Assembly: GCA_017415715.1 (NCBI GenBank)
Contig: JAFQFD010000009.1
Coordinates: 1-41,871, forward strand
DNA length: 41,871 nt
Reading direction: 5' to 3'
From: Bacteroidales bacterium
GTDB taxonomy: Bacteria; Bacteroidota; Bacteroidia; Bacteroidales; UBA932
In this document: one piece after another, positions 1 to 21,879 of the stretch
Layout of the letters: each line of letters opens with the position of its first letter
Position numbering within the stretch: the stretch's first letter is position 1
Notes under the pieces: generated by a model
The model's database searches: none
What the model saw: the letters and a program-made list of their open reading frames with translations, nothing else
What the model was told of the DNA's origin: nothing
Position numbers and translations under genes: made by a program

Positions 1-141
1 TGCCTTGACTTGGTAACATAACCCTTTGATTTACAAAGGTTAAGTTACAAAAAATCTGGGAAACATCCAAATTAGTGAACATTTCCCAGATAATTTTTCA
101 GACCTCTATGAGGACTTTTTCAGTGCCCTCGAATGAACCTG
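1..141. repeat. Left copy of 141-bp terminal inverted repeat
   Basis: Bases 1-141 are the exact reverse complement of 41731-41871, and the flanks diverge immediately inside. The repeat contains two internal palindromes: a 10-bp stem at 54-63/82-91 and an imperfect one spanning 13-48. Its inner end (near GAGGGCACTGAAAAAGT read outward) resembles the non-coding terminus of a transposable element; that is inference, since no transposase is in the window. It interrupts the leftward PL8-like gene, whose reading frame stops at 120-122 inside the repeat. Confidence 0.9.
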
Positions 142-1028
142 ATCCTCATCTCTCCGAGAGAGTTGTTGAACTCATCATCGCTCAAAAGAGGAGCACCGGT
201 AACAGAGCCGTCAGGCAATCTTCTGATTCCGTATTTCTCAAAATGCTTATCTACACGGCCCAGCAGCGTGCCTGCTGTATACTCCTTGCCTGGATTACCT
301 GTCTTTGCCCATTCATCAAGTCTGGCCTCAACCTTTCTGAGCATTTCCGACTGTTCTGCATTCACCGGATTGACAGCCCACATCGGATACTGTTCCCACT
401 CCCAGAGACGGCACCACTGCCACATATCCCTGGTCAGATTGTAATTATTTTCAGGAATCTGCTTGTCCGGAGTGATCTGGTTATGAAGCCTGTTCTTTGA
501 GAATGTTACCCTATCAATGTATATTGTTCCGGAAGCGGCTGATTCAGGCACCTTTATGATCATGCCGGCAGCATCGGTCACTCTTTCTTTGAGTTTTGTG
601 TCTCCATAATGACCTGACGGGGTCAGCATGTCGACATACTTCATCCATATTGCACGCCACCCCTCGAAGTCTGCATTGAAATCGAAGTGGCAGATCTCGC
701 TCATGTTCCAGTCAAGAATAGTGAAGCGGATCGGCTCGTCCATCGGAGTGGGGTTATATACCCACATCATTATTCCGGCTTCATTCACCTTCAGGGACGC
801 CTCGATATCTGCAAAGTTATTAAAGACCAGCTCGGCAGGACCCTCCCATGTGAATTTTATCGATTTCGATCCGTCCTTGAACTTTTCGGCCGAACTCGAC
901 ACCGTAGCGTTTCCGTTTGCTGAGATGAATGACGGAACACCGTCTTCAAAAGTATATTGCGCATTAATCGCAGCATAAGAGTCATATGCCGCCACCAATG
1001 CCGCAATCATCAACAGAATTTTCTTCAT
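120..1028 (-). pseudogene. Truncated N-terminal part of a PL8-type polysaccharide lyase
   Basis: The 302-residue product begins with a signal peptide (about residues 1-19) followed by a beta-sandwich domain like the N-terminal domain of chondroitin ABC lyases (FEDGVPSF, then a G-S-S-like SKSIKFTW strand, then YIDRVTF), and the start of the linker to the alpha/alpha catalytic toroid (DGSVTGAPL near residue 275). It is clearly related to the full 978-residue lyase at 2450-5386, which has FEDGVSPAEA and DGTITGKPI at matching places. The catalytic half is missing: the frame runs into the terminal repeat and ends there, so a family member of about 900-1000 residues has been cut to under a third. 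It is divergent from the GH88 operon, with both starts sharing the 1029-1139 interval. It was either disrupted by an insertion or simply cut by the end of the contig. Confidence 0.75.
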
Positions 1029-1139: not shown

Positions 1140-2450
1140 ATGAAAAATAGAGTACTATTCGTTATTCTGATCGCATTCCTTTCAGTTCAGTGCACTCAGA
1201 AAAAGGACATCATTCAGGAAAATGTCGACTACGCCAAGGCCCAGCTTGCATATCTGATTGAGGCGGCTGAGGAGGGTGACACCCTGAGAATACCTTCAAC
1301 ATTCAAGAATGGAGCAATCGAATTCGTCCCTACAGATGACTGGGTGAGCGGTTTCTTTGCAGGAACATTGTGGTATATGTATGAGCTTACAGGTGACGAG
1401 TATTACGCCCAGCATGCGCAGAAGCACACCGAGATACTTCATGACATTCAGTTCCTCGAGTGGCATCATGACGTTGGATTCATGGTATACGACAGCTATG
1501 GCAACGGTCGCAGGCTCAAGAATATCGAGGCGTATGACACTGTTCTCGTAAATACAGCCAAATCACTCTCTACCCGTTTCCGCCCTGCTGCAGGCATCCT
1601 TCAGTCATGGAACACTGACAACCCTGCACACTGGCAGTCACACAGAGGTTGGGACTGCCCTGTGATCATCGACAACATGATGAACCTTGAGCTACTCTTC
1701 AAGGTTTCGGAGATGACAGGTGATGACACATACAGGAACATCGCCGTCAGCCACGCCGACAAGACCCTTGCAAATCATTACCGTGACGACTTCAGTACTT
1801 ATCATGTGGTTGATTATAATGATGAGACGGGCGAGGTGCTTCATCAGCACACTGCCCAAGGTATCGCAAACGGTTCGCGTTGGGCACGCGGCCAGGCGTG
1901 GTCGGTCTACGGCTTCACTGTAGCTTATCGTTTCACTCAGGACGAGAAATATCTCCAGAGAGCAAAGGATGTTGCAAATTATCTCCTTGTAACAGAGGAC
2001 AACATGCCGGAGGATCTCGTTCCTCTCTGGGACTTCGACATCGTGGAGTTTGCAAACAATCTGCCTCAGGACGAGTTCCTTTACCCTAACCTGAAAGACA
2101 AGGATCTTCCTAAGCAGTATACCGAGATCCGAGATGTGTCTTCAGCTGCGATCATCGCTTCCGCTCTTTACGAACTCCATTGGATTACCAAGGACGACTT
2201 CTACAAGGAGAAGGCTGACAAGATGATCGAAAGCCTCTCAGCTGCGCCTTACAGGGCTGAGCTCGGAACAAATGGCGGATTCATCCTCAAGCATTCGGTA
2301 GGAAGCCTTCCGCACTCGCTCCTCAACATTGAGGCAGGACGTCCTCACGACCACAACATCGATGTTCCTCTCAACTACGCAGACTACTACTTCCTTGAGG
2401 CCCTCATAAGAAAGGGACGCGTAGAAAAGGGTGAAAATCCTATACAATAA
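1140..2450 (+). CDS. GH88 unsaturated glucuronyl hydrolase, lipoprotein
   Basis: This 436-residue protein has the alpha6/alpha6-barrel signature of GH88, enzymes that hydrate the 4,5-unsaturated uronic acid at the end of disaccharides made by polysaccharide lyases and so release the sugar partner plus a keto-uronate. The N-terminus is a lipoprotein signal (LSVQC, Cys18), placing it in the periplasm or at the outer membrane. The family catalytic acid pair is probably Asp111 (in HHDVGF) and Asp178 (in IIDNMMNLELL), with typical GH88 blocks WARGQAWSVYGF and DVSSAAIIASALYEL. Length is normal for the family. It is the first gene of the operon behind the 1071-1101 promoter, and its stop overlaps the next start by one base (TAATG), so translation is likely coupled. 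The partner lyase of PL8 type suggests chondroitin or hyaluronan disaccharides as substrate. Confidence 0.93.
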   Translation: MKNRVLFVILIAFLSVQCTQKKDIIQENVDYAKAQLAYLIEAAEEGDTLRIPSTFKNGAIEFVPTDDWVSGFFAGTLWYMYELTGDEYYAQHAQKHTEILHDIQFLEWHHDVGFMVYDSYGNGRRLKNIEAYDTVLVNTAKSLSTRFRPAAGILQSWNTDNPAHWQSHRGWDCPVIIDNMMNLELLFKVSEMTGDDTYRNIAVSHADKTLANHYRDDFSTYHVVDYNDETGEVLHQHTAQGIANGSRWARGQAWSVYGFTVAYRFTQDEKYLQRAKDVANYLLVTEDNMPEDLVPLWDFDIVEFANNLPQDEFLYPNLKDKDLPKQYTEIRDVSSAAIIASALYELHWITKDDFYKEKADKMIESLSAAPYRAELGTNGGFILKHSVGSLPHSLLNIEAGRPHDHNIDVPLNYADYYFLEALIRKGRVEKGENPIQ

Positions 2451-5386
2451 TGAACAGACCTGTTTTGCTCATCATTTTGTCGCTTGCTGCCTCCTTGCTT
2501 TTCAGCCTGGAGGCACAAGTCGTAGATTACGGCATCGCCAACGGCGTCCTTTCCTTTGAGGATGGCGTCTCGCCTGCCGAGGCTTCAAAGTGTTCCCGCC
2601 TCACTGTTTCCAATGAGCATTCCAAGCTCGGAACCAGTTCCTTGAAGTGGGACTGGAAAAAGAAGGGATCGTACATTTCCATCAAAGGCGACATTCCGTA
2701 TCTCCCGGAAAATCCCAACCCGAAAGAGACCTCGATAGCCTCTTTCGTCTTCTGGATGTACTCCCCGGCAGTCCTTGACGGGACAGTCAGATTCTCTTTC
2801 CTCAAGGACGGAAGGGAATGCTGCCATTTCGACTACTGCCTCGGATTCCAGGGATGGAGAGGTTCATGGGTCGGATTTGACAGAGACATGCAGGGAAAGC
2901 CGGAAATCGGCATGGATGAGGTCAGGATATATGCTCCCGAGACCATCAGGAAAGGTACATTGTATCTTGACGGACTCATCACATCTTCATTCCAGGATGT
3001 ACGATACCACACACCGGACTTCCACGCCCCTTACGTGAACGAAAAGACAGACATCCACTGGCTCATTCTGAATAACAGCTGGAAGCTCAGCCTGGATGTC
3101 CCTCAAAAGGAGTCATTGACAGCTGAGGAAATCGGCGACATGAAGACGGTCAGGGACAGGTTTGTCCAGATCGTCACTGAGAAGGTGAAGCCTTATTCAC
3201 TTGAGGAGGCCAGGGAAATGTATGAAAGCTACCAGCTGTCATACAACCCGGACGGAACCATCACCGGCAAGCCTATCTACTTCATCAGATACGGAGAAAC
3301 ATATCTCAACCAGGGAATTCCGGACGCGAAGCAGGCGTTTGCCAAAGCCGGCCAACTTCTCAAGGACCTTAACGACAGGATGCTCAGACTCGCTGTCTCG
3401 GTAATGAAAAGCAGCGACGCAGATGAAAGGAAAGAACTGAGCATGATGTATGTCAACCTTACCAGGCACCTTCTTGACCAGGGCTTCGCAGCCGGCAGCG
3501 GACAAGGCACCCTCCACCATCTCGGATACAGCATGAGAAACTTCTACACCGGTCCGGTCATCTTGCAGGACATCCTCAGGGAGGCCGGCCTCGACAACGA
3601 GGTGCAGCAGGCCATGGAATGGTTCTCCGGAGTTGGAGAGATAAAGGTTGCTCCAGCAGTGCTTGGAATGGATATCGATGCCTTCAACACCTCCCTCATG
3701 GGACGCGTGGCATCTCTTCTCATGCTTGATGACACACCATACAAGTATGCCTACATGCAGGCGTTGGCAAGGTGGGTCGACAATGGATTGAAGCACACTG
3801 AAGGCCTCAGGCCTTGCTTCAAGACCGACGGAACCGTAGTGCACCACAGAAAGGCATATCCGGCATATGCTACCGGAGGATTCACCGGTGCGGTGAATGC
3901 GGTATGGATGCTGGCGAAGACATCATTCGCGATATCACAGGAAAGCCATCAGAATCTCAAGGATGCGCTCCTGGCGATGAGATTCTATTGCTATGACGAT
4001 ATCTTCCCTCTCGCGATGTCGGGCAGGCATCCCGATGGAAAGGGTGCACTGATTCCATCACACTTCTCACGCCTGGCTAAGGCTGGAAGTCCTGACGGCG
4101 GGACAGAAATCGATGCAGAACTGGCCGCTGCTTTCCGTAGACTTGCACCGAAATCCAAAGCATTTGCCACAATCGACCCGGAATCCACTCCTCAAGGTAC
4201 AGAGTATTATGGATTCAGCTGCTCGATGTCTCATAGATATGGTGATGACCTGGTGACAATCGCCGGTCACAGCAGATACCTTTGGGCTGCCGAAATCTAT
4301 CAGCAGGCCAACCATTACGGACGCTATCTGACCCACGGAAGCATGGACATCGGAGGATTCTCAATGCTTGGATGGGACTGGTGCCATATTCCTGGCACCA
4401 CCGCAGCTGTCCTGCCGATGGATCAGATGAAGGCGACAGTCCTGAATGTAGATGAATTTTCAGGCTATGAAGAAATGCTCATATCAGATGAATGGTTTGC
4501 AGGCGGAGTGACCCACAAGGGACAGAACGGCGCATACGCAATGAAGCTTCATGAGCATGACAAATACAACGGCAGCCTTCGCGCGAAAAAGTCATTCTTT
4601 GTCGTTGAGAACAGGATAGTATGTCTTGGATCCGACATAGAAAACAGCCTCGAAGGCGCTCCGGTCCACACCACCCTCTTCCAGAAGTCTCTGGACAATT
4701 CTGAGGAAGACATCCAATTCATCTCAGAAGCAGGCGTCATAAAAGACCACGACGGAGTCACCTACATTGTCAGGGATGCCAAGATTCACTTCAGGTCGGG
4801 TCTGCAGCATTCTCTGCACGAAGAGTCGGACATGCCTACAGAGGGCCTGTTCGAGCTCGCATACATCGACCATGGTGACATTGTCAAGGACGGCAGATAT
4901 GAATATGCAGTGATTCTGCCTGGCGGAACATCAGACGCAGCTGCTTCTTACGAGATCGTCAGACATGACAGCAAGGTGCATTCGGTGAAGGACATACCGA
5001 CAGGTATCGTCTCTGCAGCGATATTTGAAGAAGGTTCTGTAGACCAGCACATCGTCTACAGCTCACCTGCCATGCTGATGTATTCTGCAGAAGGCGATGT
5101 AATGACACTCAGCGTTGCCAATCCGGACCTTGCATTGTATGAAGGAGAGTCTGACGAGAAGTTTGACGCAGAAGGGAAGCGCCTCGAAAGAAGTGTTTAC
5201 AGCAGATACTGGATTGACAATCCATGCGCACCTACAACGATAAAAGTAACCGTCAAAGGACTTTGGGATATTTCAGACGACAACGGTTCCGATGTGGTCT
5301 GCATCCACATAAACGGCAATACTTCCCTGACATTCAAGTCAAAAGAGGCAAGGACGGAAGAAATCACATTGAAGAAGACAAAATAA
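2450..5386 (+). CDS. PL8 chondroitin/hyaluronan lyase
   Basis: The 978-residue protein has a signal peptide (about 1-22), an N-terminal beta-sandwich (about 30-185), an alpha/alpha-toroid catalytic domain and C-terminal beta-sandwich domains, as in chondroitin sulfate ABC lyase. The catalytic residues of that family (His, Tyr, Arg, Glu) are recognisable as His466 and Tyr473 in VHHRKAYPAY, Arg526 in MSGRHPDG, and Glu615 in LWAAEIYQQANHYGRYLTHG; the His-Tyr spacing of seven matches the Proteus enzyme. The reaction is beta-elimination of galactosaminoglycan or hyaluronan chains, leaving unsaturated disaccharides for the GH88 enzyme just upstream. Both junctions are TAATG one-base overlaps, with GH88 before and the sulfatase after. 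No frameshift is visible. Exact substrate within PL8 cannot be told by eye. Confidence 0.92.
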   Translation: MNRPVLLIILSLAASLLFSLEAQVVDYGIANGVLSFEDGVSPAEASKCSRLTVSNEHSKLGTSSLKWDWKKKGSYISIKGDIPYLPENPNPKETSIASFVFWMYSPAVLDGTVRFSFLKDGRECCHFDYCLGFQGWRGSWVGFDRDMQGKPEIGMDEVRIYAPETIRKGTLYLDGLITSSFQDVRYHTPDFHAPYVNEKTDIHWLILNNSWKLSLDVPQKESLTAEEIGDMKTVRDRFVQIVTEKVKPYSLEEAREMYESYQLSYNPDGTITGKPIYFIRYGETYLNQGIPDAKQAFAKAGQLLKDLNDRMLRLAVSVMKSSDADERKELSMMYVNLTRHLLDQGFAAGSGQGTLHHLGYSMRNFYTGPVILQDILREAGLDNEVQQAMEWFSGVGEIKVAPAVLGMDIDAFNTSLMGRVASLLMLDDTPYKYAYMQALARWVDNGLKHTEGLRPCFKTDGTVVHHRKAYPAYATGGFTGAVNAVWMLAKTSFAISQESHQNLKDALLAMRFYCYDDIFPLAMSGRHPDGKGALIPSHFSRLAKAGSPDGGTEIDAELAAAFRRLAPKSKAFATIDPESTPQGTEYYGFSCSMSHRYGDDLVTIAGHSRYLWAAEIYQQANHYGRYLTHGSMDIGGFSMLGWDWCHIPGTTAAVLPMDQMKATVLNVDEFSGYEEMLISDEWFAGGVTHKGQNGAYAMKLHEHDKYNGSLRAKKSFFVVENRIVCLGSDIENSLEGAPVHTTLFQKSLDNSEEDIQFISEAGVIKDHDGVTYIVRDAKIHFRSGLQHSLHEESDMPTEGLFELAYIDHGDIVKDGRYEYAVILPGGTSDAAASYEIVRHDSKVHSVKDIPTGIVSAAIFEEGSVDQHIVYSSPAMLMYSAEGDVMTLSVANPDLALYEGESDEKFDAEGKRLERSVYSRYWIDNPCAPTTIKVTVKGLWDISDDNGSDVVCIHINGNTSLTFKSKEARTEEITLKKTK

Positions 5387-6912
5387 TGGACAAGTTCAAC
5401 AAAATACTTATTCCGGTTTCTACATTGGCAATGTTAGGCTGCACAGATGCAAAGGATGACAGGCCTAACATAATATATGTATATCCGGACCAGTTCAGAA
5501 ATCAGGCTCTGGCATTCTGGAACGAGCCGGAGTACGCTGAGCATGTGGCTTGGAAGGCAGACCCTGTCAAGACTCCAAGACTTGACGGATTTGCTGATGA
5601 GTCTGTTGTTTTCTCCAGAGCAATGAGCAACTGTCCCCTCAGCAGTCCTTACAGAGGGATCTTCCTTACAGGCATGTATCCGGAACGAAACGGAATCACC
5701 TTGAACTGCATGGCAGAAAGGCCTGAGAGCAGTTTGAGGGAAGATGCAGTATGCATCAGCGACGTACTCAGCGAACAGGGGTACAGCTGCGGATACATTG
5801 GAAAACTTCATGCAGACCACCCTACGCCAAACGACCCGGCAAATCCTGGTCACTATGTGAGCGACAGGAGGCCGGAATGGGACGCTTACACTCCCGCCGA
5901 AAGACGTCATGGCTTCTCATATTGGTATTCTTATGGTACTTTTGACGAGCATAAGAATCCCCATTATTGGGACACAGATGGTGTCAGGCATGATCCGAAG
6001 GAATGGTCTGTAGGTCATGAGACTGACAAGGCCATCGAATTCCTTCGCAATGAAAACGGTCAGAGGAAGAAGGATGCTCCATTCTTCCTGACCATCGCAT
6101 ATAATCCGCCTCACAGTCCATACGAGAGCCTTGATGACTGCATGGCCGAGGACTACTCGCTTTATGAGGACATGGGATATTCCGAGCTCTATGTCCGTGA
6201 GAATGCCGACACAACATTGAGGAAGGCACCGGCTGCAAGGTATTACTTTGCGAACGTGACAGGTGTCGACAGGGAGTTCGGACGCCTTCTCGACGCACTC
6301 GAGGAGTTGGGATTAGATGACAACACGATTGTGGTCTTCACTTCAGACCATGGAGAGACCATGTGCAGCCAGGGTACAGAGGATCCTAAAAACTCAATTT
6401 ATACCGAATCCTTCAATGTGCCTTTCATTATCAGATATCCTGAAAAGATCCGTCCGAGAGTAGACTCGACCTTGTTCAGCTCGGTGGACATCATGCCTAC
6501 GCTGCTTTCGATGGCCGGACTTAAGGATGAAATTCCTTCGACAGTTGAAGGACGCGACCTCTCCCCTGTGATTCTGGAAAATGGGGAAGACTGCAACATA
6601 CCTGAATCTGCCCTGTACATCAGGAATCTGAACGGTCCGAAAGACGAAGACGGCATGGTCAGAGGTTTCTTCCCTGTTGCTCGAGGAATCAAGACAGACA
6701 GATATACTTTCGAAGTCTCCGTGAAAAGGGACAGAACACTTGACAATGTCCTGATCTTCGACGACCGGAAGGATCCGTATCAGCTCTCACCTGTTTCCTA
6801 CACGGAGAATCCGGAGTTGTTTGAGAGCCTTCTTGCTCAGCTTGAGGCCAAGCTCGAAGAGGCAAACGATATCTGGTATAGGGAAGAAATAATCAAGAAT
6901 CTGAAATTCTGA
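5386..6912 (+). CDS. Ser-type sulfatase (S1 family), lipoprotein
   Basis: The ATG at 5386 overlaps the stop of the lyase (TAATG), giving 508 residues that begin with a lipoprotein signal (LAMLGC, Cys19); a longer upstream reading frame exists but would run inside the lyase gene. The formylglycine site is Ser86 in LSSPYRGIFLTG, that is S-x-P-Y-R followed by the usual LTG, so it is a serine-type sulfatase needing a radical-SAM maturase, which is encoded at 11789-13012. Metal and sulfate ligands are visible as PDQ near residue 35 and TSDHGE near residue 324. Tyr replaces the usual Ser or Ala in the C/S-x-P-S/A-R motif. Its place between a PL8 lyase and a beta-helix lipoprotein suggests removal of sulfate from chondroitin-type saccharides in the periplasm; the position specificity (4-O, 6-O or 2-O) is not readable. 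Confidence 0.92.
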   Translation: MDKFNKILIPVSTLAMLGCTDAKDDRPNIIYVYPDQFRNQALAFWNEPEYAEHVAWKADPVKTPRLDGFADESVVFSRAMSNCPLSSPYRGIFLTGMYPERNGITLNCMAERPESSLREDAVCISDVLSEQGYSCGYIGKLHADHPTPNDPANPGHYVSDRRPEWDAYTPAERRHGFSYWYSYGTFDEHKNPHYWDTDGVRHDPKEWSVGHETDKAIEFLRNENGQRKKDAPFFLTIAYNPPHSPYESLDDCMAEDYSLYEDMGYSELYVRENADTTLRKAPAARYYFANVTGVDREFGRLLDALEELGLDDNTIVVFTSDHGETMCSQGTEDPKNSIYTESFNVPFIIRYPEKIRPRVDSTLFSSVDIMPTLLSMAGLKDEIPSTVEGRDLSPVILENGEDCNIPESALYIRNLNGPKDEDGMVRGFFPVARGIKTDRYTFEVSVKRDRTLDNVLIFDDRKDPYQLSPVSYTENPELFESLLAQLEAKLEEANDIWYREEIIKNLKF

Positions 6913-6925
6913 TAAAACCAATCAT

Positions 6926-9472
6926 ATGAAAAGAATCACATTAATTACATCACTGATCATCCTTGCATTCAGCACGGCTGTTTCCTGCGTGAACAAAGAA
7001 GAGTGGGAAGACCGTCTGGATAATCTGGATGAAAGGGTTGCCACTCTGGAGAAGACTGTTGGCGAAATCAACGACAACGCGTTGGCCATCAGTAAGTTTG
7101 CCAGAGAGGAGATCCTCATTGTCAGGTACACTGAACTTGAACACGGCTACGAGCTGGAATTGAGTGACGGTACAAAGGTCACGATTACAGACGGCGCGTC
7201 AGCTCCAGGAATCGTTCCGATTGTCAGCATTGACAAGGACGGCAACTGGATCATGTCAATCGACGGCGGCGAGACGTTCACCCCGATCAAAGGGTCTGTC
7301 AATGCATTCAAGGAATCAGGACAGACGCCTCAATTCAAGATTGACGCAGACGGCTACTGGCTTGTAAGCATTGACGGCGGCAAGACATTCAACCAGATCC
7401 TCGGTGCGAATGGAAAGCCAATAAGCGCTACCGACGCTTCCGTAACAGCTGGTAAAGCCAAGTACTTCAGCGACATCACCTTCGACAAGGAGAACGGAAC
7501 ATTCACAATGACCCTTGTCAGCGGAGAGGTTCTGTCAGTTCCTGTTGTAGAATCATTCTACATCAAGGTTGCAGGGTATGCCGAAAAGGCTGTCATTCTG
7601 CTTGACCAGACACTCAAGTACAAGGTCGAGATGAATGAGGTCAAGGACGCATTCTTCAAGGTCCCTGAAGGCTGGAAAGCAGTTCTCACAGACAGCGAAC
7701 TTCAGGTTACCGCACCATCATCGGGTACTCCTGGCGAATACACTGTAAATCTCGTTCTCACATCTGTTGACGGATTCATTCTCAATGAAGTGTTTGTCTT
7801 CACGCTCAGCAATGAATCATACGATGCATCAAGCTGCAAAGCATTCAATGACTGGAAGACAGGAAATTCCGAAAACGTTCTCCTTGACTTCTCATATGCA
7901 GGTTACATGCGTGGTGAAGTTGCTCCAGTGGAAGCAGAAGCACTCGGTTATAAGGTCTACAATGTAATGGATTACGGTGCCGTGCCTAATGACGGCATTT
8001 CAGACCGTGCTGCATTTCTTGCTTGCGTAGAGGCGGCGACGGGCACGAAATTCTCAGAAAGCAACAAGGTCCTTACCCTCGGTCACAAGGAAAAGGCTAA
8101 CGCGATCGTATTCTTCCCGGAAGGAGAATTCATTCTTCACACATCAGATGACAACTATACTGCTGACGGCGTAACCTATAGCCGCACCATTCAGATCCGT
8201 GCCGGAAACTTCGTACTTCGCGGTGCAGGTCGTGACAAGACTACCCTTGTGATGAAGGATCCAAACCTTCCTACTGACGCAGCGGTGCTCTACAGCTCGC
8301 CGTTGATGCTTGACTTCAAGCATAACAGCAGCTTCACCCCTGATGGTTCTCCGGACGTTGTAAAGAATGCAAAGAAAGGGACTTTCTCGGTTGAACTCTC
8401 ATCTGTCACCGGTCTTAAAGTGGATTCCTGGGTAGTGCTAAGCGTTCAGAACAATGACCCTGCTTATGTTGCAGAAGAGCTCAAGGATGGAAACGTGGTT
8501 CCAGGTGAACTTGGAGAAAATCACGACATCAACAAAAACGGAGTGAAGGTATATGAATACCACCAGATCAAGTCGATCGAGGGCAACGTGGTGACATTCT
8601 ACGAACCTATCCACCATGAGGTTGACATAAACTACACAAACTTCTCGGGCAACAACTGCTATAACTGGAAGGTCATGAACTACCCTCATTATGAAAATGT
8701 CGGTATTGAGGACCTTACTTTCAAGGGCGACTGTAAAAGCGGCTTCAAGCACCATGCAAGCTGGGAAGATGACGGAGCCTTCAAGCCTCTGGGAATGACT
8801 CGTCTGACTAATTCATGGTTGCGTCGTGTACGTTTCACAAGCGTCAGCGAAGCCTGCTCAGTCACAAACTGTGCGAACGTTTCTGTGTATGATGTAATCA
8901 TCGATGGAAAACGTGGACATTCTTCGATCAGGTCACAGGTCTCGACCAGAGTTTTCATCGGTGCAACGATCGACCGCTCGAACGGATACCTTGTCGACAA
9001 TGCATCTGCTTTTGTTGAAGGTGCTGGACAGTATCACGCCGTAGGAGTTTCAAAGCCTGCAATCGGAACAGTTCTCTGGAGAAACGTATGGGGATCGGAC
9101 GCATGCTTCGAATCACATGCCACTCAGCCACGCGCAACGCTTATCGACTGCTGCATCGGCGGTTGGATGAAATACAGACAGGGAGGTGACGCGAACCAGG
9201 TACCGAACCACCTCGCAGACCTTACCATATGGAATTTCTGCTCGACTACTCCTGCTGACGGCGTCTTCAACTGGTGGGATCACAATAGCCAGTGGTGGAA
9301 GTTCCTTCCTCCTGTCGTAGTGGGTTTCCATGGTCAGACAACAACATTTGATGAGAGCCAGATGTTGCTCAACAGCAGCAACGGCATTCCTGTCAATCCG
9401 GAGTCACTCTACGAAGCACAGATTAAAGAAAGGCTTGGAGCAGTTCCAGCTTGGTTAGTTTCACTGAAATAA
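6926..9472 (+). CDS. DUF4988 lipoprotein with pectate-lyase-3-like beta-helix; candidate lyase
   Basis: The 848-residue protein has a lipoprotein signal (AVSC, Cys21), a short coiled coil (about 24-58), then DUF4988-type repeats (GNWIMSIDGGETF, GYWLVSIDGGKTF) to about residue 190, a beta-sandwich stretch, and from about 343 a right-handed beta-helix that opens with the pectate-lyase-3 signature YNVMDYGAVPNDGISD. The C-terminus (HLADLTIWNF, NWWDHNSQWW, PVVVGFHG) looks like the DUF4955 region. DUF4988 plus a beta-helix is, as I recall, the plan of the PL29 glycosaminoglycan lyase family founded on a Bacteroides thetaiotaomicron protein; that assignment is from memory and needs a search. The gene follows the sulfatase by 13 bases and precedes a second DUF4988 gene by 14 bases, so it is part of the same transcript. 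It probably sits on the cell surface. Confidence 0.75.
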   Translation: MKRITLITSLIILAFSTAVSCVNKEEWEDRLDNLDERVATLEKTVGEINDNALAISKFAREEILIVRYTELEHGYELELSDGTKVTITDGASAPGIVPIVSIDKDGNWIMSIDGGETFTPIKGSVNAFKESGQTPQFKIDADGYWLVSIDGGKTFNQILGANGKPISATDASVTAGKAKYFSDITFDKENGTFTMTLVSGEVLSVPVVESFYIKVAGYAEKAVILLDQTLKYKVEMNEVKDAFFKVPEGWKAVLTDSELQVTAPSSGTPGEYTVNLVLTSVDGFILNEVFVFTLSNESYDASSCKAFNDWKTGNSENVLLDFSYAGYMRGEVAPVEAEALGYKVYNVMDYGAVPNDGISDRAAFLACVEAATGTKFSESNKVLTLGHKEKANAIVFFPEGEFILHTSDDNYTADGVTYSRTIQIRAGNFVLRGAGRDKTTLVMKDPNLPTDAAVLYSSPLMLDFKHNSSFTPDGSPDVVKNAKKGTFSVELSSVTGLKVDSWVVLSVQNNDPAYVAEELKDGNVVPGELGENHDINKNGVKVYEYHQIKSIEGNVVTFYEPIHHEVDINYTNFSGNNCYNWKVMNYPHYENVGIEDLTFKGDCKSGFKHHASWEDDGAFKPLGMTRLTNSWLRRVRFTSVSEACSVTNCANVSVYDVIIDGKRGHSSIRSQVSTRVFIGATIDRSNGYLVDNASAFVEGAGQYHAVGVSKPAIGTVLWRNVWGSDACFESHATQPRATLIDCCIGGWMKYRQGGDANQVPNHLADLTIWNFCSTTPADGVFNWWDHNSQWWKFLPPVVVGFHGQTTTFDESQMLLNSSNGIPVNPESLYEAQIKERLGAVPAWLVSLK

Positions 9473-9486
9473 AAATAAATAGATAT

Positions 9487-15131: not shown

Positions 15132-15196
15132 ACCTGATCGAATATAAAAAAAAAGAAAAAAATCTAAAAAAGAGAAAAACTTCGTATAAGAAAAAG

Positions 15197-15237
15197 AAAA
15201 AAACTGCATTGAGCCGTTGTGTTCATGCAGTTTTTTT
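15197..15237 (+). terminator. Rho-independent terminator after the fimbrillin-like gene
   Basis: A 13-bp stem (15197-15209 with 15225-15237: A-run, ACTGCAT, mirrored by ATGCAGT and T-run) with a 15-base loop lies 65 bases after the stop. The bases between the stop and the stem (15132-15200) are an A-rich low-complexity tract. Confidence 0.8.
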
Positions 15238-15265
15238 CGCATTTTTGCGGGGAGACTAAGGGGGG

Positions 15266-15313
15266 ATGAACGTTTTTTATCAGCAGGCATTGTGCCTTTT
15301 TATTAACGTTCAT
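15266..15313. repeat. Nested palindrome upstream of the Rpn-like gene
   Basis: ATGAACGTT at 15266-15274 pairs with AACGTTCAT at 15305-15313, and between them AGGCA-TTG-TGCCT forms a smaller hairpin at 15285-15297 followed by a T-run. The whole unit ends 16 bases before the ATG of the nuclease gene. It could be a terminator, an operator or a target site of the nuclease; nothing in the sequence decides between these. Confidence 0.6.
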
Positions 15314-15329
15314 TTTAAATTTTAGTTTC

Positions 15330-16442
15330 ATGAGTAACACTCAAAAGACAAAAAAGTCTCCACAAGGGAAAATGGTGGAGATCGACGGTATCCTTTACAT
15401 GTTCATTGATGGCAAATTGTACAGATATGCCAACCTGACCTTGGATAAAGGATTCAAGATCACATTGGGGCGTCCAGGCAGCGAGGAAGTGCTGAAGCAC
15501 ATGTTGAACAGATTGCTCGGTCTGCGGATCAAATGGCTGGAATACCGTAACACGGAACATCCGGGCATGACCGAAGATGACAGGTCATCACGCTTCGACG
15601 TATATTGCGAGGATGAGGACGGAAATGGATTCCAGGTGGAAATGCAGAACTGGAGCCAGAAGCATTTCCACAAGAGAGCAGTCTACTATTCTTCACTGGT
15701 CTTGCAGGATCAGGCCGCCAGAGCAAGGAGAGAGCAGAAGCAGAGGACGGGAAACAAGAAAAACTGGGACTACAACTACAAGCCTTTATATGTGGTCAGT
15801 TTCCTGAACTTCAGGAACTGGATCTCTGAAAAGGAAGTGACCAGGATCAACCAATACATATCAATATATAGATATACGGATATCGAGACAAAGGAAGAGC
15901 TGGGTGACGGAACAAATCTCATATTCATAGACCTGCACAGTTTCTGCAAGAGACCTCACCAGTGCACGAACATGCAAGACTGGTGGATGTACAGCCTCAA
16001 GAATATGTTCAACCTGACAGAGTGTCCTTCGCAAGTATTGGGCACCGAAGTTGAAGACCTGTTCACTCAGTCGGAGTTAGCAAGAATGACACTTGAACAA
16101 CGTCTAAAAATAGAGGAAAGCATCATGACAGAGAATGACATTCGCAACAGTATTGCCGAACAGCTTGAAGAAGGCAGGGCAAAAGCTCTGGCAGAAGGCA
16201 AAGCGGAAGGTAGAGCGGAAGGACTGGAGATAGGAAGAGTAGAAGGAAGAGAAGAAGGACTGGAAATAGGTAGAGAAGAAGGAAGAGAGATTGGTAGAGC
16301 GGAAGGACTGGAAACAGGCAGAGCAGAAGGAGAGTTGGCCAAGGCCAGGGAAATAGCGACAAAATTACTTGAAAAAGGACTTTCAAGAGCAGAGATCGCT
16401 GCAATCGTCGGAATCGAGGAATCGGAACTGTTTCTTCTATAA
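15330..16442 (+). CDS. Rpn-family PD-(D/E)XK nuclease / putative transposase
   Basis: The 370-residue protein matches the Rpn / PDDEXK_2 family, DNA nucleases linked to recombination and often annotated as transposases. The active-site pattern is visible as Asp90 in SSRFDVYCEDEDG and Glu104-Met-Gln106 in FQVEMQ, the E-x-Q variant typical of the family, followed by FHKRAVYYSSLVLQ and YVVSFLNF. The C-terminal third (about 275-340) is a charged tandem repeat of EGR-x-EG-x-E-I-G units, encoded by near-repeating purine-rich DNA at about 16180-16340 that could change length by slippage. The last 30 residues (ARE...ISRAEIAAIVGIEESEL-like) form a short helical tail. It has its own leader with a nested palindrome. 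Its stop overlaps the stop of the convergent pseudogene. Confidence 0.9.
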   Translation: MSNTQKTKKSPQGKMVEIDGILYMFIDGKLYRYANLTLDKGFKITLGRPGSEEVLKHMLNRLLGLRIKWLEYRNTEHPGMTEDDRSSRFDVYCEDEDGNGFQVEMQNWSQKHFHKRAVYYSSLVLQDQAARARREQKQRTGNKKNWDYNYKPLYVVSFLNFRNWISEKEVTRINQYISIYRYTDIETKEELGDGTNLIFIDLHSFCKRPHQCTNMQDWWMYSLKNMFNLTECPSQVLGTEVEDLFTQSELARMTLEQRLKIEESIMTENDIRNSIAEQLEEGRAKALAEGKAEGRAEGLEIGRVEGREEGLEIGREEGREIGRAEGLETGRAEGELAKAREIATKLLEKGLSRAEIAAIVGIEESELFLL

Positions 16443-17214
16443 TCGGAAAATGACGACGTTCCCCGGCTCTACATCAATAGAAGAGTAATCATCGTACTCT
16501 TCCTTATCGGGTAGGATACGGTACACCTGCGAGTAGAACGAAATATCAAGGACAGATTGATCTGTGCAGTCCCTGTTCTGGACTGCAAGATAGATATGTC
16601 CTTGATTTTCAATCAATGATACTATTGCACCTTCTCCGCTCATTTCCAATGATTTCATTTTCTTGTGAGGCATATGGTCAAGCCTGTCCGTATGGGACGG
16701 AGTCGATTCTCCCGTATGCCATACTCCCAAGACCTTGCATCCTGAGAACACGGATGAATATGCCTTTATTTCCGAGTTGACCTGACGCACCAATTCGTAT
16801 GCAGGCAATTTCTCGCAGGTCACCGGATCGACCAGGCCTGTGAAGTTGAAATACTGTATAGCCTGTGCCCCATAAAGGAGATTGCTGAAGACCTGCAGAC
16901 GGATATGACCGAGGGTCGGTTCAGGATAAATCGTGTCGGGCCAAGGATCGCTGATGATGTGGGCTTTAGCAAGAGCAAATCCCTTTTCTGGCTGCGGCAT
17001 CCATTGATGCGACGGCGCTTTCCTTTGCCCGATAGAGCCCCAGATGCATGTCAAAGCCGCAATCACGGGCCAGAGAATACAACGTGTCGGCTTTATCTGC
17101 CGGGATTCCTCCCCATGATATGATTGGAATGCCCTGCCCTTTGCCAGACTGCTTTGCCGAACAGCTGCAAAATATGAGAGCGACAAGGAATATGGTTAAA
17201 TAACGGACCTTCAT
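16437..17214 (-). pseudogene. Decayed glycosidase-like lipoprotein with large internal deletion
   Basis: Two minus-strand frames belong to one broken gene. The first (17214 down to about 16985) encodes a lipoprotein signal (IFCSCSAK) and the first strand and helix of a TIM barrel (ISWGGIPADKADTLYSLARD, GFDMHLGLY). The second, in another frame from about 16985 to 16437, encodes what looks like the end of the barrel (PTLGHIRLQVFSNLLYGAQA, IQYFNFTG) and a beta-sandwich tail (GHIYLAVQNRD, EPGNVVIFRL). The bulk of the barrel, perhaps 200 residues, is missing at the junction and the frame is shifted, so this is not a simple frameshift. The full gene probably resembled a beta-galactosidase or GH42-like hydrolase. 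It cannot make a folded product. Confidence 0.75.
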
Positions 17215-17278: not shown

Positions 17279-17310
17279 TTTGGAATGATGATGAGAATCT
17301 TGTATTTTTG
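17279..17310 (+). promoter_or_regulatory. Promoter of the kdu/EIIC operon
   Basis: TTTG at 17279-17282, a 20-base spacer and TATTTTTG at 17303-17310 match the Bacteroidetes consensus. Transcription would start near 17317, giving about 33 bases of leader before the ATG at 17350. No operator palindrome is obvious. Confidence 0.7.
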
Positions 17311-17349
17311 TGAGATAAGTAACAGACACAAAACATAAAGAATAACACT

Positions 17350-18144
17350 ATGGTAAATTTCTCTCTTGAAGGCAAAGTTGCTCTGGTAACAGGAGCTGCC
17401 TATGGTATCGGATTCGCTATGGCTCAGGCTCTTGCCGAGGCTGGCGCAAAAATCGCTTTCAACTGCCGTTCACAGGCAAACATGGACAAGGCTCTCGAGG
17501 AGTATGCGAAACTCGGAATAGAAGCCAAAGGATACATCTGCGACTGCACTGACGAGGAAGGCGTGAAGGCCATGGTTGCCGACATCGCAGCCACTCTCGG
17601 ACCTGTAGACATCCTCGTGAACAATGCCGGCATCATCAAGCGCATCCCTATGCACGAGATGGCTGCTGAGGAGTTCCGTCAGGTTGTGGACATCGACCTT
17701 GTTGCTCCTTATATCTGCGCAAAGGCCGTTCTTCCGGGAATGATGGAGAAGAAGGCAGGAAAGATCATCAACGTATGTTCTATGATGTCTGAGCTCGGCC
17801 GCGAGACCGTTTCTGCATATGCATCAGCAAAGGGTGGTCTCAAGATGCTCACAAGAAACATCGCATCAGAGTACGGAGCATACAACATCCAGTGCAACGG
17901 TATCGGACCGGGCTATATCGCCACTCCGCAGACCGCTCCGCTCCGCGAGCGTCAGGCAGACGGCAGCCGCCATCCGTTCGACTCTTTCATCGTGGCGAAG
18001 ACTCCTGCAGAGCGCTGGGGCAACCCGGAGGACCTCATGGGACCTGTAGTATTCCTCGCATCGAATGCTTCGGACTTCGTGAACGGACACGTCCTCTATG
18101 TAGACGGAGGTATCCTCGCTTACATCGGAAAGCAGCCTAAGTAA
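17350..18144 (+). CDS. kduD: KduD-like short-chain dehydrogenase (2-dehydro-3-deoxy-D-gluconate 5-dehydrogenase / gluconate 5-dehydrogenase)
   Basis: The 264-residue protein is a classical SDR: TGAAYGIG cofactor loop (15-22), NNAG (91-94), and the catalytic Ser144, Tyr157 and Lys161 (NVCSMM, YASAK). Family members related to this one reduce 2,5-diketo-3-deoxygluconate (DKII) to 2-keto-3-deoxygluconate, or act on 5-ketogluconate. No signal peptide is present, so it is cytoplasmic. It leads an operon with DUF4861, an EIIC transporter and kduI, which favours the KduD role over gluconate metabolism. Its stop overlaps the next ATG by one base (TAATG). The next pathway enzymes, KDG kinase and aldolase, are not in the window. 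Confidence 0.85.
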   Translation: MVNFSLEGKVALVTGAAYGIGFAMAQALAEAGAKIAFNCRSQANMDKALEEYAKLGIEAKGYICDCTDEEGVKAMVADIAATLGPVDILVNNAGIIKRIPMHEMAAEEFRQVVDIDLVAPYICAKAVLPGMMEKKAGKIINVCSMMSELGRETVSAYASAKGGLKMLTRNIASEYGAYNIQCNGIGPGYIATPQTAPLRERQADGSRHPFDSFIVAKTPAERWGNPEDLMGPVVFLASNASDFVNGHVLYVDGGILAYIGKQPK

Positions 18145-19352
18145 TGATGAGATTCCTATACATGCTTGGAATAACAGCGGCAGTCTGCATTCTTGCAGGC
18201 TGCTCTGCTGCGTCTTTTGAGGTAGTTGTCAGCAATCCTGCAGACTGCGACAGGCAACCGGAGCTGGCCGAGGTCGCTTTGACCGAGGTATGCGCGGCGC
18301 TGGAGCTTGCGGAGGGAGAAGGATTCGTCATCAGGAACGAGGGAAAGGAAGTCCCTTACCAGATCACATATGACGAAAAAGTTGTCTTTCCTGTGACACT
18401 CCAGGCGGGTGAAAAGCAGGCTTATGCTTTCAGAAAAGGCATACCTTCGGCAGTACAGACAATCGCCTGCGGAAAGCATTATCCTGATAAGGACAACGAT
18501 ATCGCATGGGAAAATGACAAGGTCGGATTCCGCATGTATGGCCATAAGCTTGACGTGGCAGCCGGATATGACCTCTTTGCCAAAAGAGGCACCGATCTTC
18601 CTGTCCTTGAAGGTTTTTACAAGAACGAAGTCTCTACAGCACCGACCTGGAACAGATATAACGAACTGCTCGAGACAGACAAGGAAGCGGCATTCCGCTA
18701 TAAGATGGACACAATATCATACCATGTGGACAAAGGATTCGGAATGGACTGCTATGCTGTGGGACCGACCCTCGGAGCCGGCGTGGCCGCACTTGTGGAA
18801 GATGGAAAGATCATATATCCATACTGCTACGACACATTTGAAATCCTCGATAACGGACCGCTCAGATTCACACTCAAGACAACATTCAGGCCGATGAATA
18901 TCGGAGAGGAAAGTGTCGTAGAGACCAGGATCATCACTCTGGATGCCGGTTCACGCATGAACCACACCAGCGTCTCTTATGCCGGCCTTAGCCATGCGAA
19001 GGAGATCGTGGCAGGCATCGTGCTTCGTGACAATGGCATGGAGAGTATTGCAGAGGCGGAAAAAGGATACATATCCTACCCTGCGCCGACACAGAACGCA
19101 GACACCACACAGGTTGTCGACAACGGCATCCTGTATGTGGGACACGCCTACCCTGCGCCTCTGAAGGAGGCAAAAGAGGCTGAAGGACATGTGCTCGCAT
19201 GCAGCGAGTATGTTCCCGGAACACCGTTCGAATACTATTGGGGATTCGGATGGGACCATGCGGACATTCGCTCTTCAGAGGAATGGAACGCATTCCTCGA
19301 GGTGTTCGCCGCACAGGTCAGAAACCCTCTATTGATAGAAATGAAACATTAA
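18144..19352 (+). CDS. DUF4861 family lipoprotein
   Basis: The 402-residue protein starts with a lipoprotein signal (ILAGC, Cys20) and has the DUF4861 layout: an N-terminal beta-rich part (EGFVIRNEGKEVPYQITYD, VTLQAGEKQAYAF), the block WENDKVGFRMYG, then SYHVDKGFGMDCYAVGPTLG and a C-terminal YYWGFGWDHADI. This is a secreted beta-rich family seen near uronate-degradation genes; its biochemical function is not known to me. Two conserved-looking aromatic and acidic clusters (DKGFGMDCY and WGFGWDHAD) could line a sugar site, which is inference. An alternative start three bases later (ATGATG) gives the same signal peptide. It is co-transcribed with kduD upstream and the EIIC gene seven bases downstream, so an extracytoplasmic step in handling keto-uronates is plausible. 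Confidence 0.8.
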   Translation: MMRFLYMLGITAAVCILAGCSAASFEVVVSNPADCDRQPELAEVALTEVCAALELAEGEGFVIRNEGKEVPYQITYDEKVVFPVTLQAGEKQAYAFRKGIPSAVQTIACGKHYPDKDNDIAWENDKVGFRMYGHKLDVAAGYDLFAKRGTDLPVLEGFYKNEVSTAPTWNRYNELLETDKEAAFRYKMDTISYHVDKGFGMDCYAVGPTLGAGVAALVEDGKIIYPYCYDTFEILDNGPLRFTLKTTFRPMNIGEESVVETRIITLDAGSRMNHTSVSYAGLSHAKEIVAGIVLRDNGMESIAEAEKGYISYPAPTQNADTTQVVDNGILYVGHAYPAPLKEAKEAEGHVLACSEYVPGTPFEYYWGFGWDHADIRSSEEWNAFLEVFAAQVRNPLLIEMKH

Positions 19353-19359
19353 ACTTATT

Positions 19360-20778
19360 ATGGAACAAGTATTCAGTTATATCATCGGACTTGGCGCTGC
19401 CGTGATGATGCCTATTATCTTCACGATTCTGGGCGTGTGCATCGGCATCAAGTTCAGCAAGGCCCTCAAGAGCGGCCTTCTGGTGGGAGTCGGATTCGTC
19501 GGACTTTCCGTCATCACGTCACTGCTCACCAGCACTCTCGGACCGGCTCTCAGCAAGGTCGTTGAGATATATGGTCTTCAGCTCAAGGTCTTCGACATGG
19601 GATGGCCTGCAGCGGCATCAGTCGCATACAACACCTCAGTTGGAGCACTCATCATCCCTGTATGTCTGGGCGTCAACCTGCTGATGCTTCTCACAAAGAC
19701 CACCAGGACCGTGAACATCGACCTCTGGAACTACTGGCATTTCGCCTTCATCGGAGCTGTGGTATACTTCGCCGCAGATAACATCTGGTGGGGATTCTTC
19801 GCAGCGATCATCTGCTACATCATCACTCTGATCCTTGCGGACTACACTGCTGACAGATTCCAGAAGTTCTATGATGGAATGGAGGGAATATCCATTCCGC
19901 AGCCTTTCTGCCAGGGATTCGTGCCATTTGCCGAGCTCATCAACAAGGGACTTGACAAGATTCCGGGCATGGACAAGCTCGAGATAGACTCAGAGGGAAT
20001 GAAGAAGAAGTTCGGCCTCCTCGGAGAGCCTCTCTTCCTCGGTATACTCGTGGGAATCATCATCGGAGCCCTCTCGTGCGAGAGCTGGAAGGAAGTTGTG
20101 GACAAGATTCCTTATATTCTTGGAGTAGGTATCAAGATGGGAGCAGTGATGGAGCTCATCCCTCGCATCACTTCCCTCTTCATTGAAGGTCTGAAGCCGA
20201 TTTCGGAAGCTACACGCGACCTTATCAACAGGAAGTTCAAAGGCGCCAAGGGCCTCAGCATCGGCATGAGCCCTGCACTTGTGATCGGACATCCGACCAC
20301 TTTGGTAGTGTCCCTCCTTCTTATCCCTGTGACTCTCATCCTCGCTGTAGTGCTTCCGGGCAACGAGTTCCTTCCGCTCGCATCGCTTGCAGGAATGTTC
20401 TACATCTTCCCTCTCATACTTCCTATCACAAAGGGAAATGTCGTGAAATCGTTCATCATCGGACTTGTAGTGATCCTCATCGGCCTGTATTTCGTGACAG
20501 ACCTTGCTCCTTATTTCACTCTTGCCGCCCATGACGTATATGCGGCTACAGGAGATGCTGCGGTAGCTATTCCTGAGGGATTCGACGGCGGCTCGCTCGA
20601 CTTCGCGTCAAGCCCGCTCGCATGGGTGATCTTCCACCTTTCATATTCACTCAAGTGGATCGGCGTGACAGTCCTCGTGCTCATCACCATGTTCCTGATG
20701 TTCCTCAACCGCAGAGCCATCATCAAGTATCAGAAGGCGGCTGCAGAGGCAGAAAACACAGAAAATAATCAACAGTAA
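19360..20778 (+). CDS. Orphan PTS EIIC, galactitol (GatC) family; candidate uronate transporter
   Basis: The 472-residue protein is an integral membrane protein with roughly 10-12 hydrophobic segments and matches the EIIC-GAT family (GatC of E. coli is about 450 residues): [66 protein letters not shown] and [16 protein letters not shown]. No EIIA, EIIB, HPr or Enzyme I gene lies in the window, and Bacteroidetes generally lack a PTS, so phosphorylation-coupled transport is unlikely. Sitting between DUF4861 and a secreted KduI and downstream of kduD, it may carry a keto-deoxy-uronate across the inner membrane. That function is inference. The C-terminus ([14 protein letters not shown]) is a short hydrophilic tail with no fused IIB domain. 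Confidence 0.88.
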
Positions 20779-20782
20779 TATT

Positions 20783-21724
20783 ATGAAGAAGTTTGTTTTA
20801 TTCACATTAATGAGTCTTATGACAATGGCAGCAAACGCACAGCTGAACTACACCGTTCAGACAGCATGTCATCCTGATGACGTAAAGCATTATGACACAG
20901 AGCGTCTCCGTGGCGCATTCCTTATGGAGAAGGTAATGTCTCCTGACGAGATCAATCTCACTTACACTCTTTATGACCGCCTCATCTACGGCGGCGTGAT
21001 GCCTGTGAACCAGACACTCGTTCTCGAGACTTTCGACGAGCTCAAGGCTGAGCACTTCCTCGACAGACGTGAGCTTGGCGTGATCAATGTCGGTGGCGAC
21101 GGAGTCGTGACAGTTGACGGCAAGGAGTATCCTATGTCATTCAAGGAAGGCCTCTATGTAGGCTGCGGCAAGAAGGAAGTCACTTTCAGAAGCGTTGACC
21201 CTGCAAACCCTGCAAAGTTCTACATCAACTCTACCCCTGCATACAAGGAGTATGTGACTCAGCTCATCACAACTGACAAGAACGCAGACCCTAAGAAGTA
21301 TGCGATCGCACAGTCTGACCACTACGGAAAGATGGAGGACAGCAACGACCGCATCGTGAACCAGCTGATCGTAAGCTCTGTTCTCGGCAAGAAGAAGGGC
21401 GGCGGAACAAACCAGCTCCAGATGGGTCTGACCGAGCTCCTTCCTGGCTCTGTATGGAACACAATGCCGGCTCACACCCACACACGCCGCATGGAGGCAT
21501 ACTTCTACTTCAACGTGACTCCGGGCAACGCGATCTGCCACCTCATGGGCGAGCCTAAGCAGCAGCGCCTCGTATGGATGCAGAACGAGCAGGCCATCAC
21601 CTCACCTGAGTGGTCGATCCACGCAGCAGCAGGAACCAGCAACTACATGTTCATCTGGGGAATGGGAGGAGAGAACCTCAACTACGGTGACAAGGACGAA
21701 ATCCCATACACAGAAATGAGATAA
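20783..21724 (+). CDS. kduI: KduI, 5-keto-4-deoxyuronate isomerase with signal peptide
   Basis: The 313-residue protein is a cupin isomerase that converts 5-keto-4-deoxyuronate (DKI) to 2,5-diketo-3-deoxygluconate (DKII). The zinc ligands are His231, His233, Glu238 and His280 ([23 protein letters not shown]); their spacing of 2, 7 and 49 equals that of E. coli KduI (196, 198, 203, 245). The protein is 35 residues longer than the 278-residue E. coli enzyme, all at the N-terminus, where [20 protein letters not shown] is a clean signal peptide with an ANA-Q cleavage site and no lipobox. It should therefore be periplasmic, whereas the classical enzyme is cytoplasmic. The only plausible start is this ATG, four bases after the EIIC stop. 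A terminator follows at 21764. Confidence 0.93.
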
Positions 21725-21763
21725 TGACAACGTCCTCCCGGCATGACCGGGACACATGATACG

Positions 21764-21798
21764 AATGAGCCGACTCTTTTTAGGAGAGCCGGCTCATT
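21764..21798 (+). terminator. Rho-independent terminator of the kdu operon
   Basis: A 14-bp stem with one G-T pair (21764-21777 with 21785-21798), a seven-base loop and a T-rich tail lie 40 bases after kduI. The mirrored arms read AATGAGCC... and ...GGCTCATT. Confidence 0.85.
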
Positions 21799-21879
21799 TC
21801 TTTCTATAACCACGCCACCAGAAGCCACTTGACCAGACATACCACCTGACACTCACACGCAGCATACCCACCACCGCTG

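Follow-up and report, generated by a model that had tools for sequence, protein, structure and literature searches.

The four-gene set

The window examined here is a stretch of 41,871 nucleotides from a Bacteroidales bacterium (GenBank assembly GCA_017415715.1, contig JAFQFD010000009.1, positions 1 to 41,871). Our subject is a set of four genes within it that appears to serve the use of unsaturated uronates, namely a reductase of the DhuD type, a lipoprotein of the family DUF4861, a homologue of the membrane permease EIIC of the phosphotransferase system (PTS), and the isomerase KduI, which is predicted to be exported. The four open reading frames (ORFs) lie on the same strand, with a one-base overlap between the first two (spacing -1) and with 7 and 4 bases between the others. 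The compounds in question are 4-deoxy-L-threo-5-hexosulose uronate (DHU, or DKI), 3-deoxy-D-glycero-2,5-hexodiulosonate (DK-II), and 2-keto-3-deoxygluconate (KDG), and the features of the set are as follows.

17279..17310, + strand: match to a Bacteroides-type promoter, TTTG-N20-TANNTTTG (pattern search)
17350..18144, + strand: DhuD-type short-chain reductase (DK-II to KDG), without N-terminal extension, read as cytoplasmic (NF005488, PDB relatives)
18144..19352, + strand: DUF4861 lipoprotein with a probable super-sandwich fold; accessory, outside the conserved core (PF16153, NF058564)
19360..20778, + strand: EIIC-GAT (galactitol) homologue, putative DK-II importer working without a PTS (PF03611)
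20783..21724, + strand: KduI isomerase with a Sec signal peptide and predicted cleavage before Q20, probably exported (NF002091; ortholog of 9kd0)
21763..21799, + strand: intrinsic terminator-like hairpin, then a T-rich run (fold within 21755-21808, -21.8 kcal/mol)

The preliminary description of this DNA had placed one promoter and one terminator around the four genes. Because the promoter match begins exactly at 17279 and the hairpin occupies 21763-21799, the boundaries drawn there appear meaningful. The pattern, which we take to be the Bacteroides-type consensus, has five matches in the whole window, counting both strands and spacers of 18-22 bases. Generic scans speak against both calls, since they were at chance for sigma-70 promoters (8 found, 6.9 expected) and for terminators (5 found, 5.7 expected) and the hairpin at 21763-21799 was not among their hits. 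The Bacteroides-type pattern and RNA folding were used in their place.

The reductase at 17350-18144 had been labeled as cytoplasmic KduD. We rejected that name because the protein scores 224.2 with the kduD model TIGR01832 (equivalog cut-off 338.85) and resembles DhuD, both by NF005488 (476.5 bits, cut-off 369) and by its closest solved relatives, PDB 9kd1 (447 bits) and the streptococcal gbs1891 (4u8g, 429 bits), the latter presumably a DhuD. We read it as cytoplasmic, since the flags that such reductases draw under the hydropathy rule that we used for signal peptides can be put down to their Rossmann strand, and the protein aligns with the solved enzyme from residue 2. The EIIC homologue matches PF03611 with 276.8 bits (cut-off 24.2) and the galactitol permease model TIGR00827 with 386.5 bits, below the subfamily cut-off of 542.2. 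It is related over nearly its whole length to the solved galactitol EIIC, 9u82.

Linkage of EIIC and kduI

Two collections of genomes were used. The first, an order sample of 295 Bacteroidales genomes, holds EIIC (PF03611) in 8 genomes and KduI (NF002091) in 73; two of the eight EIIC genomes are about 86% complete and six at least 95%. In all eight, kduI follows EIIC directly and on the same strand, and the other seven EIIC proteins are 70-76% identical to that of the window. The preliminary description would have been weakened by an EIIC gene that is common away from kdu genes; this was not seen, as every EIIC of the order sample is next to kduI. A DhuD-like reductase and 2-keto-3-deoxy-6-phosphogluconate (KDPG) aldolase also occur in 8/8, although the reductase match in genome G025 covers residues 93-264 only, in a longer frame. 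In this frame (locus L049, 8049-9671), a secreted N-terminal region without a Pfam match is joined to the C-terminal half of DhuD, either as a true fusion or through an error in the assembly; the search of the G025 genome gave no other DhuD. Across the phylum, a scan of 395 genomes found the EIIC profile in three, all of them Bacteroidales.

The second collection was a scan of named genomes in which the best 80 of at least 535 EIIC relatives were kept, so that it is weighted to close relatives of the window EIIC. Among the relatives are those of Phocaeicola vulgatus ATCC 8482, Bacteroides xylanisolvens XB1A, B. faecis, and B. finegoldii. Two loci, L115 and L119, duplicate G025 and G258; they are counted among the 80 and left out of the neighbor-gene and signal-peptide tallies. 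KduI follows EIIC on the same strand in 74 of the 80 loci (66 adjacent, 8 further on), and of the eight gapped loci, six were resolved by gene calls, with the kinase KdgK and KDPG aldolase in between in five. The remaining six loci have no KduI in the locus DNA. Four of them end 207 to 1604 bases past EIIC, a KduI with a signal-peptide start lies elsewhere in the assemblies of L111, L121, L126, and L153, and L168 has contig-edge pieces only. A DhuD-type reductase is upstream in 36 loci, and all four genes are present in 13. Hence, of the four-gene co-occurrence proposed earlier, the EIIC-kduI pair stands (adjacent in 8/8), and the full set does not (13/80, with DUF4861 shared in one of eight). 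Three metagenome-assembled genomes titled Paenibacillus, Clostridiales, and Lachnoclostridium (L117, L154, and L167) carry the Bacteroidales-type operon within the clade and are probably mislabeled.

Predicted export of KduI

The window KduI scores 366.7 bits with NF002091 (equivalog cut-off 250) and carries the motifs H-x-H-x4-E and W-[ST]-I-H, which we take to be metal ligands. It begins with a clear Sec-type signal peptide that ends in AANA and is followed by Q, and this start, judged by sequence only, does not fit the cytoplasmic location of the standard scheme. The same is true of all eight EIIC-linked KduI proteins of the order sample, which have signal peptides, while 28 unlinked ones begin directly at the enzyme. 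For a wider comparison, we took 88 linked and 82 unlinked KduI rows and dropped identical domains and rows with fewer than 240 domain residues, leaving 76 and 66 (142 distinct proteins). By the hydropathy rule, a signal peptide is present in 76/76 linked versus 1/66 unlinked proteins (Fisher test, 3e-40, on rows that are related). In each of the 76 the signal peptide is hydrophobic and contains an A-x-A-like site, and in 72 cleavage would fall between A and Q. Exposure of a Q in this way is described as the Q-rule of Bacteroidetes (PMC5837995). The lone unlinked protein that trips the rule, at L174, owes this to 11 extra residues ahead of the usual start, which include no cleavage site; none of the 66 unlinked starts is convincing as a signal peptide, and none was found on the 32 KduI proteins of EIIC-less loci. 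The motif H-x-H-x4-E is kept in 76/76 linked and 64/66 unlinked proteins and W-[ST]-I-H in 69/76 and 61/66. To judge from these predictions, KduI export tracks EIIC linkage almost perfectly.

The linked loci outside the 76 are duplicates (L051, L053, L115, L119, L170, L171, and the window) or partial (L094, L107, L135, and L151). Signal peptides are present at the N-termini of the partial loci; the single linked row that lacks one is a C-terminal piece of the broken L094 gene. Matches to NF002091 in G011, G131 (two), G233, and G262, and a short piece, G164:C246, were left out.

On a tree of the 142 proteins, made by a quick method, the linked label requires 3 changes (at least 2 when well-supported branches are counted), whereas shuffled labels need 47.5 on average. 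This suggests one or two origins of the EIIC-linked form. Locus L089 offers an informative comparison. There, the EIIC-linked KduI has a signal peptide, and 4 kb from it a second KduI of its clade, without an EIIC link, has none. This leaderless protein belongs to a gene row (14161-17082, - strand) that also encodes UxuA and D-mannonate oxidoreductase, a cytoplasmic hexuronate operon, so that the predicted location of KduI seems to follow operon context.

The exported KduI is often the only one. No other KduI was found in six of the eight EIIC genomes of the order sample, and among 18 named isolates, nine have the exported form together with a leaderless one starting MKTNYEIRYA, eight have the exported form only, and one has a broken gene. 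In these 14 genomes (6 sampled and 8 named), the search covered KduI and not the unrelated isomerase DhuI; no dhuD-dhuI cluster is reported in Bacteroidota in the survey text of PMC12838403. Where the exported KduI is alone, KduI-made DK-II could therefore arise only outside the inner membrane. The kduI gene of the EIIC-KduI operon of Bacteroides rodentium (L094) is broken into several pieces.

EIIC, probably without a PTS

HPr, EIIB (PF02302), and the EI N-domain were each found in none of the eight EIIC genomes of the order sample, in a search that did not extend to EIIA or to EIIB families beyond PF02302. The same searches were positive in 7, 6, and 7 of 14 control genomes, respectively. 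Because these partners were not found, EIIC probably works without phosphorylation, and a role as a secondary carrier or facilitator is expected. We infer DK-II to be its substrate.

Neighboring genes across EIIC loci

The EIIC loci hold KdgK (23 loci), KDPG aldolase (22 loci), and hydrolases of the GH88/105 type (20 loci). By the hydropathy rule, signal peptides are present on 20/20 of these hydrolases and on 9/10 pectinesterases in each of two clusters; the rule also flags KdgK in 1/23 and KDPG aldolase in 1/22, and we read both of these flags as false. Two styles of locus recur. In Bacteroides and Phocaeicola, EIIC-KduI is often followed by a transporter of the major facilitator superfamily (MFS) and faces GH88/105 and pectinesterase genes. 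In Muribaculaceae and relatives, the order is DhuD-(DUF4861)-EIIC-KduI with KdgK and KDPG aldolase. In B. thetaiotaomicron, BT4105-BT4107 may be such a set, beside a pectin polysaccharide utilization locus; the one paper that came up for these genes deals with iron. As EIIC-KduI is found among glycosaminoglycan as well as pectin genes, the compound shared by these loci is the unsaturated uronate product. Near DhuD, KduI, and KdgK there is repeatedly a GltD-like flavoprotein (Fer4_20, Pyr_redox), with 15 proteins in 14 loci (one of them scanned), including L049, L091, L112, L117, L131, L146, L148, L150, L154, L161, and L163.

The DUF4861 lipoprotein

The window DUF4861 protein scores 276.3 bits with PF16153 (cut-off 22.3) and 335.6 with NF058564 (cut-off 320), and it has the lipobox LAGC. 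The family was found in 74/295 Bacteroidales genomes, and within the EIIC-KduI operon in one of the eight EIIC genomes, that of the window. The preliminary description had it act on a periplasmic intermediate; a specific part for it in the split pathway is not supported. DUF4861 is secreted by rule in 15/15 cases in EIIC loci and in 21/22 cases in EIIC-less loci (the remaining one has a visible lipobox). Because it is thus secreted also where the KduI nearby is cytoplasmic, and just 15 of the 80 loci have it upstream of EIIC, it is not part of the core; a single DUF4861-EIIC unit was rejected on the same ground of secretion. A search by sequence for solved relatives gave chance-level matches only. 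The super-sandwich proteins of PL26 and GH38 are possible relatives by fold; model matches to YidC and others were set aside, as they have only the sandwich in common. DUF4861 goes unmentioned in the literature that we searched.

Other genes of the window

The following genes lie upstream of the four-gene set.

1140..2450, + strand: GH88 unsaturated glucuronyl hydrolase with a lipoprotein-like start (SVQC), putative source of DHU (domain match; intact ORF)
2450..5386, + strand: PL8-type chondroitin/hyaluronan lyase (Lyase_N, Lyase_catalyt, Lyase_8)
5224..6912, + strand: sulfatase (the listed ORF overlaps the preceding one; the true start is probably further in)
6926..9472, + strand: relative of the BT3328-family hyaluronic acid lyases (NF058554, 964.8 bits, below the cut-off of 1100)

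The lipoprotein GH88 at 1140 had been part of the route first proposed; its ORF is intact, and its closest solved protein is 3wiw (265 bits). Judged from the predicted GH88, PL8 lyase, sulfatase, and BT3328-family relative, the region 5' of the four-gene set is a glycosaminoglycan locus. At 6926-11733 there are two tandem DUF4988 proteins, the first resembling BT3328 lyase throughout and the second in its N-terminal part only. A short ORF at 120-1028 (- strand) matches mainly the N-terminal domain of PL8 lyase, and an ORF without a Pfam match at 16437-17186 (- strand), directly upstream of the operon, adjoins a PD-(D/E)XK transposase-family gene at 15330-16442 (+ strand).

Discussion

We consider it probable that these genes encode a pathway split between two compartments. 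Lyases and GH88/GH105 enzymes would release unsaturated uronate in the periplasm, where it would open to DHU. The exported KduI would isomerize DHU to DK-II in the same compartment, and the galactitol-type EIIC would take DK-II over the inner membrane as a secondary carrier, without a PTS. Cytoplasmic DhuD would then reduce DK-II with NADH to KDG, to be consumed by KdgK and KDPG aldolase. The core of what had been proposed at the outset, a periplasmic KduI with a PTS-less EIIC and a cytoplasmic reductase, held up in linkage (8/8 and 74/80) and in export. We regard the finding as sound in its core, and we infer the transport step. We also lean toward the proposal of a new layout in a clade of gut Bacteroidales, in which KduI has moved to the periplasm, a PTS-less EIIC has turned into a secondary carrier of DK-II, and isomerization comes before import.

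Several points weigh against this reading. Signal peptides were called by eye and by a hydropathy rule of our own making rather than by SignalP, and the rule flags 16/39 reductases in EIIC loci as well. As 68 of the 76 linked KduI proteins come from a scan keyed on EIIC, and as the linked proteins are related, the counts are not independent events. The linkage itself has exceptions, in that the assembly of L124 has EIIC with no KduI found, and L126 has both genes unlinked. Assemblies may be incomplete, and because the non-homologous DhuI was outside the search, an only KduI is not strictly an only DHU isomerase. An MFS transporter, which could be the importer, comes next after KduI in 27 of the 66 gene-called loci. 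A leaderless KduI is present as well in nine of the 18 named isolates, so that DHU itself is expected to enter these cells by some route. Lastly, transport and localization are predicted here from sequence, and so are the periplasmic activity of KduI, DK-II as the cargo, energy coupling, and direction.

The MFS gene and the second, leaderless KduI would also fit an unlikely alternative, in which EIIC carries DHU or another sugar (galacturonate or glucuronate), the exported KduI merely equilibrates or detoxifies periplasmic DHU, and the actual flux passes by way of a cytoplasmic isomerase (KduI or DhuI) or the MFS transporter. However, the EIIC-KduI linkage persists where no MFS gene is nearby, and in the 14 genomes in which the exported KduI is the sole one found, DHU imported by EIIC would meet no KduI to isomerize it. 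It is improbable that the exported KduI acts instead on free galacturonate or glucuronate, with tagaturonate or fructuronate formed in the periplasm and imported by EIIC. The KduI of E. coli is reported to convert both hexuronates (PMC3578941), and pectinesterases occur near EIIC, but the linked genes (DhuD, KdgK, and KDPG aldolase) are those of the KDG route, and the single KduI of the clade that stands beside UxuA and D-mannonate oxidoreductase has neither EIIC nor a signal peptide. That a PTS chain is present but was missed, making EIIC an ordinary phosphorylating permease, is very improbable, as the two genomes of about 86% completeness and the unsearched EIIA and other EIIB families are set against six genomes of at least 95%, positive controls, and HPr, EI N-domain, and EIIB (PF02302) each at 0/8.

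If the split pathway is correct, reconstructions with all Kdu and Dhu steps in the cytoplasm would be wrong for these bacteria, and an inner-membrane step would be at hand for unsaturated uronates from both pectin and host glycosaminoglycans. Accounts of glycosaminoglycan use by Bacteroides have monosaccharides released in the periplasm and then imported, and BT4653 is a putative hexose transporter proposed for heparan sulfate sugars; the passages seen of these sources name no carrier for the unsaturated uronate (PMC6994673, PMC9067506). Here, EIIC would be a specific candidate carrier, with DK-II as its candidate substrate, and strains that can be cultured, among them Phocaeicola vulgatus ATCC 8482 and Bacteroides xylanisolvens XB1A, carry it. 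It also seems to be a case of a PTS permease domain that does its work with no phosphotransfer.

Our literature search brought up neither the split pathway nor an EIIC for uronates, which is weak evidence of novelty since subscription papers were thinly covered. In a term search of the main text of PMC12838403, "periplasm" appears once (in the scheme for Dickeya) and "EIIC" and "signal peptide" do not appear, and the main text of Ravcheev 2013 (PMC3878776) has no kdu and no PTS. In the PDB, the ketol-isomerase 9kd0 is 100% identical to residues 20-306 of the EIIC-linked exported KduI of B. xylanisolvens XB1A, that is, to its mature form, and 9kcz and 9kd1 differ only slightly from the cytoplasmic KduI and DhuD of that species. 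Two of the enzymes have therefore already been noticed by someone, although 9kd0 covers the KduI enzyme only, and no relevant paper was found for the codes 9KD0, 9KCZ, and 9KD1.

The EIIC-exported-KduI layout would be a variant of the known KduI/DhuD uronate pathway. According to the parts seen of a 2025 survey (mSphere, PMC12838403), Bacteroidota typically pair KduI with DhuD, and its Type E kduI-dhuD hybrid cluster has the same two enzymes, taking DHU to KDG in gut Bacteroidota. In the Type E cluster, kduI and then dhuD are adjacent and run in one direction, whereas the window has the order dhuD-DUF4861-EIIC-kduI with the two genes 2.6 kb apart. With the PTS galactitol permease (9u82, PF03611), the window EIIC shares nearly its whole length, but it scores below the TIGR00827 cut-off, and the eight genomes gave no match to the partners EIIB (PF02302), HPr, and EI N-domain. 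The streptococcal hyaluronan route, as outlined in PMC12838403 and PMC9067506, likewise uses a PTS permease for lyase products with DhuD downstream. There, the unsaturated disaccharide is phosphorylated on import and hydrolyzed inside, whereas in the proposed Bacteroidales route hydrolysis and isomerization would come first, followed by import of a monosaccharide without a PTS.

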